From NCBI GenBank assembly GCA_021824575.1, contig JAKAKJ010000024.1, positions 1-44,758 on the forward strand: a stretch of 44,758 nt of DNA, given 5' to 3'. Shown here piece after piece: positions 10,192 through 15,805 of the stretch. The notes beneath the pieces were generated by a model, which saw only the letters and a program-made list of their open reading frames with translations, was not told the origin of the DNA and made no database searches. The position numbers and the translations under genes are program-made. Numbering within the stretch: the stretch's first letter is position 1; the number at the start of each line of letters is the position of its first letter. Source of the DNA: Chloroflexota bacterium. Its GTDB lineage: Bacteria > Chloroflexota > Anaerolineae > Anaerolineales > Villigracilaceae.

Positions 10192-10464
10192 ATGCCCGTT
10201 TTGAAAGTCGGCGCGCTGATGCGCTACTACATCAATAATCAGGCAGAAGCTGCCGTTCACGGCGCGACGGTTTCAGATGCTTTACAAGACGCGGTCACTC
10301 AGTATCCTAATCTTCGATTTCATGTTTTTGATTCGGAAGGTAAGCTGCGCCGCCATATCAATGTTTTTGTGAATGATCAAAACGTTCGCGAGCTGGGTGG
10401 TTTGGAAACAAAGCTCAATGAATCTGATCGCATTACTTTGCTGGCTTCGATTTCGGGTGGTTAA
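10192..10464 (+). CDS. MoaD/ThiS-family sulfur carrier protein ending in Gly-Gly
   Basis: The 90-residue protein has the beta-grasp pattern of MoaD and CysO (RYYINNQAEAAVHGATVSDAL, then HINVFVND and ITLLASISGG). It ends in the required C-terminal Gly-Gly that becomes a thiocarboxylate. It is a paralogue of the carrier at 12633. Together with cysM, the JAMM protease and MoeZ downstream it points to carrier-dependent cysteine synthesis; a molybdopterin role is possible. A TAAAAT box at 10180-10185 would place the transcript start at the ATG, so the message may be leaderless. It is separated from the cys operon by the promoter at 10484. Confidence 0.85.
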   Translation: MPVLKVGALMRYYINNQAEAAVHGATVSDALQDAVTQYPNLRFHVFDSEGKLRRHINVFVNDQNVRELGGLETKLNESDRITLLASISGG

Positions 10465-10483: not shown

Positions 10484-10511
10484 TTGACAAAACAAGTAAG
10501 AATTGTAAAAT
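10484..10511 (+). promoter_or_regulatory. Promoter of the cysteine operon
   Basis: TTGACA (10484-10489) and TAAAAT (10506-10511) with a 16-bp spacer. The start point near 10518 lies 17 nt before the Cys leader peptide. Confidence 0.8.
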
Positions 10512-10534
10512 AGCCGACATCTCATAGATAACCT

Positions 10535-10579
10535 ATGATTAACTTTTCCTATTGCTCCTGTCTAAGGCGGGGTTCGTAA
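10535..10579 (+). CDS. Cysteine-codon leader peptide (14 residues)
   Basis: The short frame encodes MINFSYCSCLRRGS and stops with TAA at 10577-10579. Two Cys codons (TGC 10553-10555 and TGT 10559-10561) lie just before the first arm of a hairpin, the position of control codons in amino-acid attenuators. The stop codon falls in the loop region of that hairpin. It lies between the cys promoter and the terminator that precedes cysM. No strong ribosome-binding site is seen, so initiation is the weakest point. Its role as a sensor of charged tRNA-Cys is inferred. Confidence 0.75.
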   Translation: MINFSYCSCLRRGS

Positions 10580-10693
10580 CACCGCCTCTTCAAGAAGATC
10601 AGCCAACGAATTGAAGGACGGTGTGCGACTCCCGCATTCGATAAATCGAATCGGCGGCGCTGCATAGCGTCCTTTTTGTTTTCGCTGGCTGAT
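10565..10693 (+). promoter_or_regulatory. Ribosome-mediated attenuator of the cysteine operon
   Basis: Hairpin 1:2 joins AGGCGG-g-GTT (10565-10574) to AAC-a-CCGCCT (10578-10587). Segment 2 (ACACCGCCT, 10579-10587) can instead pair with segment 3 (AGG-a-CGGTGT, 10615-10624), nine pairs with one bulged A. Segment 3 otherwise pairs with segment 4 as terminator: AAGGACG (10614-10620) with CGTCCTT (10668-10674), extended by TGTGC/GCATA around an inner ATTCGA/TCGAAT hairpin, then TTTTTGTTTT. A further stem, ATCAGCCA-a-CGAA with TTCG-c-TGGCTGAT (10598-10610 with 10681-10693), encloses the terminator and is followed by TTTTATTT. Stalling at the Cys codons would cover segment 1 and allow antitermination. 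Confidence 0.75.
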
Positions 10694-10715
10694 TTTATTT
10701 CAACTCTCAGCGCGC

Positions 10716-10750
10716 TCCAGGCGGCGTCCTCGCCGCCGAGGACGGCGGCT
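10716..10750. repeat. GC-rich palindromic dispersed repeat before cysM
   Basis: GTCCTCG and CGAGGAC flank a CCGC centre, within alternating GGCGGC blocks. It lies between the attenuator and the cysM start. It may reduce or set translation of cysM, or be neutral. Confidence 0.6.
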
Positions 10751-10770
10751 AGAGCTTTAAATGGTATTGG

Positions 10771-11718
10771 ATGACACTTACACAGATACGAAAAACACAC
10801 TTTAAAGCGATTGAAGATGGACTCGAGGCGCGGGTGGGGAATACGCCATTACTCCCGCTTCGCCGCGTGACCTCGGGCCTGCCGCGCCAAATTCAAGTTT
10901 TCGCCAAAGCTGAATGGTTCAACCCCGGCGGCTCGGTCAAAGATCGGCCTGCGCTCAATATTATTCGCACCGCGATTGCAAATGGCGATCTTATTTCTGG
11001 CAAACGCTTGCTCGATTCGACGTCCGGCAACATGGGAATTTCGTACGCGACATTCGGCGCGGCAATGGGGATCCCTGTCACATTATGTTTGCCTGCCAAT
11101 GCCAGTCCGGAACGAATCACGATCTTGCGCGTGCTCGGTGCGGAAGTGATTCTGACCGACCCATCCGAAGGCTCAGACGGCGCGATTCGAGTTGCGCGTC
11201 AAATGGCCGCGGAAAAGCCCGATACGTATTGGTATGCGAATCAATACAACAACGATGCCAACTGGCAAGCCCATTATTTGACAACCGGCCCGGAAATCCT
11301 CGCCCAAACGAATGGGCAGGTCACGCACTTTGTCGCAGGACTTGGAACGTCAGGCACATTGATGGGAACTGGCCGTTATCTGCGCGAGCAACTGCCGAAC
11401 GTCAAGATCATTGCAGCGCAGCCTGATGCGCCGTTTCATGGTCTCGAAGGTCTCAAGCACATGCCGTCCGCGATCCAGCCCGGGATTTTTGATCCAGCCT
11501 TTGCGGACGAGACGGTCGAAGTCCAGACCGAAGCGGCGCACGAAATGGTTCGACGGTTGGCGCGCGAAGAAGGTCTATTTGTCGGAATATCATCCGGCGC
11601 GGCGATGGTCGCAGCGATGCAAGTTGCGTCTCGAATCAAAGAAGGCGTGATCGTGACTTTGTTCCCCGACGCAGGCTACAAATATCTGAGCGACAAAGCT
11701 TTGTGGGAAGGCAAATGA
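10771..11718 (+). CDS. cysM: PLP-dependent cysteine synthase, CysM type
   Basis: The 315-residue enzyme is a fold-type II PLP enzyme. RVGNTPLLPL opens the fold, NPGGSVKDRPALN contains the PLP Lys57, STSGNMGISYATFG is the substrate-carboxylate loop, and GLGTSGTLMGTG is the phosphate-binding loop. Residues NPGGSVKDRPA resemble mycobacterial CysM, which uses O-phosphoserine and the CysO thiocarboxylate. The adjoining JAMM protease, carrier and MoeZ genes support the same pathway here; classical O-acetylserine use cannot be excluded. Its stop overlaps the next start (ATGA). Expression is likely controlled by the Cys-codon attenuator. The ribosome-binding site is weak. Confidence 0.88.
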   Translation: MTLTQIRKTHFKAIEDGLEARVGNTPLLPLRRVTSGLPRQIQVFAKAEWFNPGGSVKDRPALNIIRTAIANGDLISGKRLLDSTSGNMGISYATFGAAMGIPVTLCLPANASPERITILRVLGAEVILTDPSEGSDGAIRVARQMAAEKPDTYWYANQYNNDANWQAHYLTTGPEILAQTNGQVTHFVAGLGTSGTLMGTGRYLREQLPNVKIIAAQPDAPFHGLEGLKHMPSAIQPGIFDPAFADETVEVQTEAAHEMVRRLAREEGLFVGISSGAAMVAAMQVASRIKEGVIVTLFPDAGYKYLSDKALWEGK

Positions 11719-12137
11719 TGCTGCGGCTTTCGAAAGATGTCTTGGCGCAAATTCACGCGCATGGCGAAGATGCCTATCCTGAAGAAGGCGCGGGCTTTTT
11801 GCTCGGCTCAGATGGAAATGAGCGCGCAGTGAAAACAATCCTGCCGTTGACGAATTCACGCGAAGACGCCGCGCGGCATAATCGTTATTTGATCACGCCG
11901 GAGGATTATCTCAAAGCCGAATTGGAAGCTGACCGCCTCGGGCTGAGTCTGATCGGCGTGTTTCATTCGCATCCCGATCATCCGAACCGTCCCTCGGAAT
12001 TTGACCGCGATTGGGCGCAGCCGTTTTTTTCGTACATCATCACGAGCGTGGATTCTGGAAAGGCAATTGAATCACGCTCGTGGCGGTTGATTGAAGATCG
12101 TTCGCAATTCGAAGAAGAAAAAATACAAATTAACTGA
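11715..12137 (+). CDS. JAMM/Mov34-family metalloprotease (Mec-like)
   Basis: The 140-residue protein carries the complete JAMM zinc motif: Glu in YPEEGAGFLLG (about residue 22), then GVFHSHPDHPNRPSEFDRDWA with HxH, Ser and Asp. In mycobacteria the Mec enzyme releases cysteine from the CysO-cysteine adduct. Some relatives trim the tail of a sulfur carrier to expose Gly-Gly. The start overlaps the cysM stop (ATGA), and a second ATG follows directly; both are possible. Its position between cysM and a carrier gene fits this role well. Confidence 0.88.
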   Translation: MMLRLSKDVLAQIHAHGEDAYPEEGAGFLLGSDGNERAVKTILPLTNSREDAARHNRYLITPEDYLKAELEADRLGLSLIGVFHSHPDHPNRPSEFDRDWAQPFFSYIITSVDSGKAIESRSWRLIEDRSQFEEEKIQIN

Positions 12138-12632: not shown

Positions 12633-13055
12633 GTGGCAACTCTAAAAATTCCAACTCCATTGCGTAGTTACACAAATGGTCAGGCCGAAGTCGCTGTTGA
12701 CGGTGCGAACGTCGCTCAAGCAATGGACAATCTGATCGAAAAATTTCCAACGCTGAGGCCGCATCTTTATAACGGTGACGGAAACCTGCGCCCGTTTGTG
12801 AATCTGTTCGTCGGCGAAAACAATATCAAGGACTTGCAGGGACTCGAGACACCGCTTGATGAAAATGCGCGCGTGATTCTGATCCCCTCGATTGCTGGTG
12901 GATCAGAGTCTCTTGAAATTTGTGGTGAAGGAAATTTGAACCGCCAAGCTCGCGAAGTGCGCGAAGAAAAAGCTTTTAAACTTGGCGTGCTTGGCGCTCT
13001 TCGCGGTTCGATTTTGACATTGTCGCAAGTCTCACCAAAGTCAAAAAGAATCTAG
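12633..13055 (+). CDS. CysO/MoaD-like sulfur carrier with C-terminal extension from a mobile element
   Basis: Residues 1-90 form a MoaD-type beta-grasp carrier (TPLRSYTNGQAEVAVDGANV, FVNLFVGE, VILIPSIAGG) with Gly-Gly at 89-90. Normally the protein would end there. Instead 50 further residues, rich in Arg, Lys and Glu, run to a TAG at 13053. These codons lie inside a 151-bp palindromic element flanked by a 10-bp direct repeat. Removing the element plus one repeat copy gives GGA-TGA, that is ...IAGG and stop, with the next gene's ATG overlapping as ATGA. The protein as encoded cannot form a thiocarboxylate unless the tail is removed, perhaps by the JAMM protease upstream. The start is GTG with GAGAGG upstream. 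Confidence 0.85.
   Translation: MATLKIPTPLRSYTNGQAEVAVDGANVAQAMDNLIEKFPTLRPHLYNGDGNLRPFVNLFVGENNIKDLQGLETPLDENARVILIPSIAGGSESLEICGEGNLNRQAREVREEKAFKLGVLGALRGSILTLSQVSPKSKRI
12904..13054. mobile_element. Small non-autonomous palindromic element (MITE-like) with 10-bp target-site duplication
   Basis: The sequence GCTGGTGGAT occurs exactly at 12894-12903 and again at 13055-13064, flanking 151 bp. Inside lies an inverted repeat whose arms begin GAACCGC and end GCGGTTC. Both arms are built from alternating CGCGAAG and CCAAG blocks around an AAAGCTTTT centre. There is no transposase gene. A nucleotide-level excision restores a carrier gene with Gly-Gly terminus and a stop/start overlap with moeZ, which strongly supports insertion. 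Confidence 0.85.
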
Positions 13056-14392: not shown

Positions 14393-15805
14393 ATGGCTGG
14401 TCTTCCCGTTTCCAACGAAAAACACGTTTACGATAATATTCTCGGCGCGATTGGCTGGACTCCGCTCGTGCGATTAGGACGTGTCGCTTCAAGCGTTCAG
14501 ATTCCAATCTATGCCAAACTGGAAAATCTAAATCCCGGCGGGAGCATCAAAGATCGCGTTGGTTTAAATATCATCGAGCAGGCGGAAAAACGAGGCGAAC
14601 TCAAACCGGGTGGGACGGTGGTCGAGGCGACATCGGGCAACACTGGCGTGGGGCTTGCGATTGCATCGGCTCTCAAAGGTTATAAAACCATTTTTGTCAT
14701 GCCCGATAAAATGAGCAACGAAAAGATCATGCTGTTGCGCGCATACGGGGCGAAGGTTGTCATCACGCCGACCGCCGTCGCGCCGGACGATCCGCGTTCG
14801 TATTATGAAGTCGCCAAAAAATTCGCGCGTGAAACGCCGAATGCGATTTTAGCAAATCAATATCACAATCCCGATAATCCCATCACGCACGAGTTGACCA
14901 CCGGCCCCGAAATTTGGGAACAGACCGACGGCAAAGTCACGGATGTCATTATCGGCATGGGGACGGGTGGAACGATTTCGGGCATTGGTCATTATCTCAA
15001 ATCGAAAAATCCAAAGATCAAAATTGTCGGCGTGGATATTGAAGGCTCGATCCTGACCGAGATTTGGCAGAACAAGGGGAAAGTCCCGGCGGGCGCGTAC
15101 CCGAAGACATACAAGGTCGAAGGCATTGGCGAGGATTTTTTGCCAACCACGACTGATATTTCGGTTGTGGATGACATTGTGCGCGTGAATGATCGCGAGT
15201 CGTTCTTGTGGGCGCGTCAGCTTGTGAGGCAGGAGGGAATCTTCGCGGGCGGCTCGACCGGCTCGGCTCTCGCGGGCACGATGAAATACGCGTCGAAATT
15301 ATCCGGCGAGCGTTTGATCGTCGTGATCTTCCCTGATAGCGGTTCGCGTTACCTTTCAAAGTTCTACGATAACAAATGGATGCGCGAAAACGGATTCCTC
15401 GAGATGGAATTTGGCGAAGTGACTCTCGGCGATTTGCTTTTCGTCAAGCCAAACAAAACGCTTCACATCGCGGCGTTGGGCGACTCGATGCGTAAAGTGA
15501 TAACGTCCATGCGACAGAACGCCATCTCACAAATGCCTGTTGTCGGCGCGGACGGAACTCTGGTTGGCACCATCGAAGAATTGGATTTGTTGAATCATCT
15601 GTTGGAAAGTCATCAACATAGTCATGATGAACCGATTGATCGCCTTGTGCAAAACGCCAAAGCAGTCTTCCCGCCGGAGACATCCCTTGACGAGGCGATG
15701 CCCATGCTTACAGATGGCTTTGCGCTGATTGTGGTTGAGCAGGGCAAGCCGGCAGGAATCCTGACCAAGATTGATGTTCTGGATTATGTTGCCGGAAGAA
15801 TTTGA
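14393..15805 (+). CDS. Cystathionine beta-synthase / cysteine synthase with CBS domains
   Basis: The 470-residue protein has a fold-type II PLP domain (about residues 12-335): IGWTPLVRLG, NPGGSIKDRVGLN with PLP Lys53, TSGNTGVGLAIAS and GMGTGGTISGIG. A pair of CBS domains follows (about 350-470), one with ISQMPVVGADGTLVGTIEE and one ending PAGILTKIDVLDYV. PLP-plus-CBS proteins act as cystathionine beta-synthase or cysteine synthase; the CBS pair often senses adenosyl compounds. AAAGGAG precedes the ATG. It stands just after the carrier-dependent cysteine operon but behind that operon's terminator, so it is probably a separate unit. Confidence 0.9.
   Translation: MAGLPVSNEKHVYDNILGAIGWTPLVRLGRVASSVQIPIYAKLENLNPGGSIKDRVGLNIIEQAEKRGELKPGGTVVEATSGNTGVGLAIASALKGYKTIFVMPDKMSNEKIMLLRAYGAKVVITPTAVAPDDPRSYYEVAKKFARETPNAILANQYHNPDNPITHELTTGPEIWEQTDGKVTDVIIGMGTGGTISGIGHYLKSKNPKIKIVGVDIEGSILTEIWQNKGKVPAGAYPKTYKVEGIGEDFLPTTTDISVVDDIVRVNDRESFLWARQLVRQEGIFAGGSTGSALAGTMKYASKLSGERLIVVIFPDSGSRYLSKFYDNKWMRENGFLEMEFGEVTLGDLLFVKPNKTLHIAALGDSMRKVITSMRQNAISQMPVVGADGTLVGTIEELDLLNHLLESHQHSHDEPIDRLVQNAKAVFPPETSLDEAMPMLTDGFALIVVEQGKPAGILTKIDVLDYVAGRI

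Follow-up and report, generated by a model that had tools for sequence, protein, structure and literature searches.

What controls the cysteine synthase cluster that begins at position 10771 of this contig from a Chloroflexota bacterium? The initial annotation placed a leader peptide with Cys codons, and an attenuator, directly upstream of the cysM-like gene. Our analysis of the 44,758-nucleotide contig (the window) and of related genomes supports this reading in substance and indicates that it was understated in scope. The element belongs to a cysteine-codon attenuator family that is widespread in Anaerolineae, and very probably acts by ribosome-mediated transcription attenuation in response to the supply of Cys-tRNA. 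The parts of the switch and the genes behind it are:

10484-10511, + strand: sigma-70-type promoter, TTGACA-16-TAAAAT (consensus scan, 11 of 12 matches)
10535-10579, + strand: leader ORF MINFSYCSCLRRGS*, 14 residues, ATG to TAA (sequence; frame and stop position kept in relatives)
10553-10561, + strand: control codons TGC-TCC-TGT, Cys-x-Cys (sequence, relatives)
10565-10587, + strand: hairpin 1:2, 10565-10570 with 10582-10587 (fold, -11.4 kcal/mol)
10567-10593, + strand: antiterminator 5' arm, comprising segment 1, the stop codon and segment 2 (duplex, covariation)
10611-10635, + strand: antiterminator 3' arm, which includes the terminator 5' arm (duplex, mutual exclusion in relatives)
10613-10682, + strand: predicted intrinsic terminator, stem 10613-10620 with 10668-10675 (fold, -31.7 kcal/mol)
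10597-10699, + strand: outer stem enclosing the terminator, 10597-10605 with 10686-10694 and 10607-10610 with 10681-10684 (fold)
10771-11718, + strand: CysM-like cysteine synthase, the putatively regulated gene (PF00291; best NCBIfam match TIGR01138 cysM, below its cutoff)
11703-12137, + strand: Mec-like JAB-domain hydrolase, second gene (PF14464 Prok-JAB)
12633-13055, + strand: CysO/ThiS-like sulfur carrier in the same cluster (PF02597 ThiS)

The consensus promoter and the 14-codon leader with two Cys codons ahead of hairpin 1:2 are as initially annotated. The codons are TGC (10553-10555) and TGT (10559-10561), and the loop of the hairpin holds the stop codon TAA (10577-10579). Among relatives, a regular expression found a TTGACA promoter in 29 of 30 cysM upstream regions. 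The proposed pairing of segment 2 with segment 3 is real and longer than first noted: 10567-10593 pairs with 10611-10635 at -33.7 kcal/mol as a duplex (-31.6 kcal/mol as a hairpin), in a helix whose 5' arm takes in the final codons of the leader, its stop codon and segment 2. The terminator that uses segment 3 was also recovered, with the U-tract TTTTTGTTTT at 10673-10682 directly after its stem. By computation, antiterminator and terminator are mutually exclusive in the window through their common use of the terminator 5' arm. The fold of 10517-10684, up to the first U-tract, has a z-score of -3.10 (1 of 200 shuffles equally stable), and that of 10517-10770 a z-score of -5.97 (0 of 200), the longer stretch taking in the outer stem and an unrelated palindromic repeat.

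Three features go beyond the initial annotation: the outer stem, a second U-run after it (10693-10699), and the repeat, a GC-rich palindromic dispersed sequence at 10714-10756, between attenuator and cysM, with 15 further matches in the genome. Two genus mates (L012 and L013) have no such repeat and carry an SD-like GGAG near their ATG; the window has no clear SD near the cysM ATG.

The ThiS, PALP and Prok-JAB domains found in the cluster bear out the CysO-CysM-Mec-like gene set that had been proposed. After the ThiS (CysO-like) gene comes a ThiF-rhodanese gene. Directly upstream of the promoter, 10192-10464 encodes a second small sulfur carrier, SAMP1/MoaD-like, just above the cutoff of NCBIfam NF041918. 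The cluster further contains a second cysteine synthase-like gene (14393-15805), 40% identical to CysM and with a C-terminal extension, at which covariance models R1 and R2 found no attenuator match.

The best argument against a chance arrangement is the recurrence of the element upstream of cysM in relatives, together with covariation of its helices. In 61 genomes, including the window's own, a protein search yielded 34 CysM-like places (E < 1e-100, identity at least 59%), and the upstream DNA of all 34 was inspected. The Cys codons are conserved in other Chloroflexota, as had been anticipated: a C-x-C element lies upstream of 30 of the 34 genes (29 among L009-L038, plus L129), and one more, L130, has Cys-Cys instead of C-x-C in its leader MLPLLVVRFQTGCCQRRGP, ending in TGC. 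At two of the 34 places (L131 and L132), inspection revealed no element upstream of the CysM-like gene. Upstream of cysM in L023/L133 (G056), the element is shortened to ATGGGGCGGGAATGTGCCTGCCCTTTTT, a short terminator hairpin enclosing TGT-GCC-TGC, which is perhaps a minimal attenuator. The CxC element also occurs at all 80 named CysM loci that were kept (the best 80 of 558 relatives), where 79 fit the pattern within 480 nt upstream and L209, one base off the pattern, was recognized by eye. All 80 carry the names Chloroflexi/Chloroflexota, Anaerolineae or related ones, and they share some genomes with the 34 places, so the two sets are not independent.

How far does the family extend? At E 0.01, covariance model R1 has matches in 77 of the 396 class genomes (unfiltered, with some weak matches false); R2, at E 0.001, has matches in 92 of the 396 (also unfiltered). 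By our own reading of the matches, the inspected elements span 22 family labels. A plain pattern search matched 101 of 298 class genomes but is unspecific, as a reversed-pattern control also matches many. When R2 was run on 400 genomes sampled from the phylum, 38 matched; outside the class it gave only two weak matches (G447 and G637), both inside coding genes, and this absence is weak evidence given the stricter filters and an unstated number of non-class genomes. Rfam 15 places no family on the leader at gathering score, and up to E 5 yields only one microRNA family and one lncRNA family, far below threshold. The architecture of the family is its own, not matched by Rfam 15 as searched.

The genes behind the elements are mostly related to cysteine and sulfur. 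We fetched 60 places, chosen from pattern matches (by eye) and R1 matches without taking all of them; 49 lie before recognizable cysteine or sulfur genes, 4 before DUF4395-thioredoxin genes and 7 in coding sequence. Dropped as coding sequence or for want of a leader were L100, L104, L109, L110, L117, L118 and L120. Behind the 53 elements are 22 CysM-like and 10 CysK-like genes (assigned by BLAST to the window's proteins), 10 genes for two-domain rhodanese sulfurtransferases (domains checked in 3), 6 for NIR_SIR sulfite/nitrite reductases (checked in 3), 4 for DUF4395 proteins (all checked) and 1 for cystathionine gamma-synthase (checked), the others being assigned by sequence likeness. CysE follows CysK in L074 and SufE follows the sulfurtransferase in L069; cysS was not identified among the 53 downstream genes.

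Two of these gene contexts deserve separate description. In L111 (G092:C3), the NIR_SIR protein encoded at 610-2535 carries a ThiS sulfur-carrier domain at its C-terminus, and the leader ahead of its gene contains three Cys codons (MCLCICPQRGP-). In L085, L090, L091 and L128, the same attenuator precedes DUF4395 membrane protein genes, each with a thioredoxin-like gene behind it (confirmed by Pfam in L085, L090 and L091, recognized by eye in L128); in L128 a PALP (CysK-like) gene comes next. The attenuator, the thioredoxin-like genes and, in L128, the PALP gene alongside suggest a sulfur-related role for DUF4395.

Is the leader ORF itself conserved? We compared 145 elements, reduced from 161 by removing those with identical first 120 nt. 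The set was picked by a regular expression requiring CxC, so that CxC is present by construction and information comes only from codon choice, frame, start and stop; L023, L037, L105, L130 and the seven dropped places are left out of it. An in-frame ATG lies at most 25 codons upstream, with no intervening stop, in 137 of the 145; the two alternative frames give 3 and 7. Stop codons are TAA (66), TAG (66) and TGA (13), and in 128 elements the distance from the first Cys codon to the stop is exactly 8 codons. At the first Cys position 126 elements use TGC and 19 use TGT; at the second, all 145 use TGT (outside the set, L130 ends in TGC). Cys codons in the long ORFs of the window are TGC 46 times and TGT 28 times. 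Incidental inspection showed no pairing partner that would account for the TGT. Additional Cys codons occur in L086 (MCCMC), L165 (CCMC), L208 (MCCRC) and L218 (CSCTC). An SD-like 4-mer was found in only 29 of the 137 leaders with a start, and where a promoter was called (97 elements, start sites predicted), 6 to 49 nt, most often 22-24, lie between the -10 box and the ATG, a distance that bears on whether the transcripts are leaderless, as considered for mycobacterial polycysteine leaders.

These features are consistent with the following sequence of events, modeled on classical attenuation. RNA polymerase would start near 10518, as judged from the promoter, and a ribosome would begin the 14-codon leader. 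With cysteine in supply, the ribosome would reach the stop codon and cover segment 2, as the stop codon is within the antiterminator 5' arm. When cysteine is scarce, the ribosome would stall at the Cys-x-Cys codons, which lie shortly before segment 1, and would leave segment 2 uncovered. The antiterminator could then capture the terminator 5' arm, and cysM and the following genes would be transcribed. The outer stem probably provides a further terminator, which would catch polymerases running past the first U-tract.

A ribosome-masking calculation on the 145 elements agrees with this order of events: mean antiterminator occupancy is 0.96 with the ribosome at the first Cys codon, 0.78 at the second and 0.19 at the stop, but the calculation is geometric, and the drop at the stop is partly due to the masking itself and is not independent proof. 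In equilibrium folding without a ribosome, the antiterminator has a mean occupancy of 0.90 over the same elements. Hairpin 1:2 is thus not supported as a strong protector in such folding. It is present as initially annotated and is conserved in relatives, but it does not out-compete the antiterminator, and its role as a protector is uncertain. As equilibrium folding favors the antiterminator, transcription kinetics must decide the outcome, and an untranslated leader might allow read-through.

Codon sensing alone explains neither the prevailing C-x-C nor the near-invariant UGU of the second codon. The fixed spacing, the UGU and the helix across the stop codon lead us to consider, as a small possibility, a two-position sensor. 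Here, stalling at the first or at the second Cys codon, or arrest through the chemistry of the CxC peptide itself, would give different outputs, and antiterminator and outer stem could coexist as a pseudoknot after read-through.

A related idea is that the CxC peptide arrests the ribosome by its chemistry in the exit tunnel (thiol, redox or metal), and that the RNA switch reads the arrest rather than the supply of Cys-tRNA. It would accommodate the prevalence of C-x-C spacing upstream of cysM, the UGU second codon in 145 of 145 elements, and the few leaders that the nearest in-frame ATG, by which lengths were set where one is present, would leave 9 residues long (MCxC plus 5). We consider it unlikely, as the residues before CxC and the middle residue vary widely among the 145 elements, and as other cysteine arrangements occur: Cys-Cys in L130, Cys-Cys-Cys in L105, and C-x-C-x-C in all six NIR_SIR leaders. 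Moreover, three leaders have Gln at the Arg position, and the downstream arm of each has CCCTG, which keeps the RNA pairing. The additional Cys codons and the kept pairing also count for the main reading: it is pairing that holds the bases of segment 1, and the Cys codons are held as codons.

The pairing was examined across relatives in alignment A3, whose 73 sources were chosen out of 98 offered, with sulfite/nitrite reductase leaders, among others, left out. Its 73 rows comprise 72 sense and one antisense (L009:1325-1483:-); the antisense row is counted in the covariation tests and in model R2, and excluded from the U-tract and mutual-exclusion counts. L106, though submitted, is absent from the aligned set. 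RNAalifold on a first MAFFT alignment gave only 10 pairs, because segments shift between families, and a covariance model with per-sequence duplexes was used in its place.

The stems covary, as had been predicted. For the terminator-state structure, to which A3 was fitted, 88.6% of cells are paired (76.3% in shuffles) and covariation is 0.396 (0.194 in shuffles, with 0 of 500 reaching it), and 17 of 19 pairs are changed on both sides. The terminator core helix (91.8% paired) and the outer-stem helix (92.4% paired) each have 6 of 6 pairs changed on both sides, and hairpin 1:2 (89.8% of cells paired) has 3 of 5. The antiterminator, to which A3 was not fitted, has 82.3% of cells paired (78.9% in shuffles) and a covariation of 0.140 (0.109 in shuffles, 0 of 500; maximum of 0.077 for slid versions). 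Both sides are changed in 9 of its 14 pairs, a number also reached by 20 of 500 shuffles. In 63 of 66 rows, the antiterminator takes half or more of the terminator 5' arm into its own pairing.

An arm-swap test points the same way. Over 75 non-redundant elements with corrected registration, own arms pair at a mean of -37.9 kcal/mol and swapped arms at -29.7 (sd 0.44), and 0 of 20000 permutations equal the own-arm mean; the own partner ranks first among the 75 for only 16 elements and in the top three for 30. This test supersedes an earlier one on 82 elements, at least four of them misregistered (L018, L020, L070 and L073), in which the median was -36.0 kcal/mol versus -24.7 for shuffles; of the 82, 41 paired better than every one of 100 shuffles and 14 better than every swapped partner.

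Could the switch act on translation instead, with the leader ribosome governing access to the cysM ribosome-binding site? This is how mycobacterial cysteine leaders are described (PMC13236596, in the part of that paper available), and the available part of PMC1262725 reports no conserved terminator hairpins for them; in L012 and L013, the gene starts within about 20 nt of the outer stem. The reading is distinctly unlikely here, given the distribution of U-tracts: at least 6 T in ten bases occur after the inner stem in 62 of 72 elements, after the outer stem in 51 of 72, and after either in 69 of 72. The SD-like GGAG of, e.g., L012, L013 and L017 lies after the second U-run and outside the stems, and in the window 76 nt, inserted repeat counted in, separate the outer stem from the ATG.

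The primary sequence is strongly conserved around GGCGGGG and CCCCGC, which might suggest a metabolite-binding riboswitch that merely overlaps a short ORF. The conserved bases, however, are the arms of two alternative helices and covary, the frame, start and stop of the ORF are kept, and no Rfam family matches the leader at gathering level, making a riboswitch very improbable. Finally, that the element is a mere terminator of the gene at 10192-10464, downstream of which it lies, with no regulatory role, is scarcely credible, as a promoter stands between the two and the element tracks cysteine and sulfur genes across relatives rather than the upstream gene.

How does the putative transcription attenuator compare with known systems? 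Three features of trp- and his-type attenuators are found in the window: a short leader ORF whose control codons specify the operon's product amino acid, an antiterminator and a terminator that by computation exclude each other, and an intrinsic terminator with a U-tract before the first gene (predicted on sequence alone). In the E. coli trp leader, the ORF has 15 codons and encodes a 14-residue peptide with Trp at codons 10 and 11, according to the portion of PMC1183508 that describes it. Shared with it, as far as that portion goes, are the 14-residue leader, two control codons shortly before the stop, and the 1:2, 2:3 and 3:4 segments. Unlike in trp, the antiterminator here includes the stop codon and the leader codons just before it, and the terminator sits inside an outer stem.

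The mycobacterial parallel drawn in the initial annotation is less close than it suggested. Mycobacterial polycysteine leaders are, like the window's, short ORFs with Cys codons before cysteine or sulfur genes, for which ribosome sensing has been proposed. In the accessible text of Seliverstov et al. 2005 (PMC1262725), their Cys codons come in runs close to the stop and conserved terminator hairpins are lacking, whereas here two Cys codons occur as C-x-C, five codons before the stop, and antiterminator and intrinsic terminator are conserved. The 2026 paper PMC13236596, in its available part, refers to Canestrari et al. 2020 when it describes cysteine genes as controlled by translation attenuation.

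In proteobacteria, uORFC-8-2 upstream of cysS is proposed to act by ribosome-mediated attenuation (PMC8632094, available part). It resembles the element described here in having a uORF with two conserved Cys codons and a U-run closing a terminator-like stem. In that part of the paper, its Cys codons are adjacent, usually at positions 14-15, inside the first stem and before the cysteinyl-tRNA synthetase gene, whereas the C-x-C here is upstream of the first stem and before sulfur assimilation genes. The likeness of MetL of Streptomyces lividans (MSTTSDRTPATEATTTPGARCMCRRMCAF, upstream of metNIQ; PMC8079986, available part) is one of peptide only, C-M-C-R-R in a leader ORF; unlike the window's element, it is filed there as methionine-dependent and without a clear intrinsic terminator.

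Leader peptide systems were previously known only in Proteobacteria and Actinobacteria according to a 2010 survey, which adds a Firmicutes case and, in the available main text, makes no mention of Chloroflexi (PMC2965389). The available part of PMC4833913 mentions Chloroflexi a single time, as having too few genomes. Among the titles listed from open-licence PMC papers, none reports such an element in Chloroflexi, Anaerolineae or Chloroflexota, which does not prove its absence from print.

What, then, does the attenuator family mean for these bacteria? It amounts to a predicted cysteine regulon without a regulatory protein, in a mostly uncultured bacterial class. One signal would tie together the CysO-CysM-Mec-like route and genes for sulfite/nitrite reductase, sulfurtransferase and thioredoxin. 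The approximately 145 natural variants offer material for testing how control-codon placement and helix competition shape an attenuator response, and the covariance model can find unannotated sulfur genes in Chloroflexota genomes.
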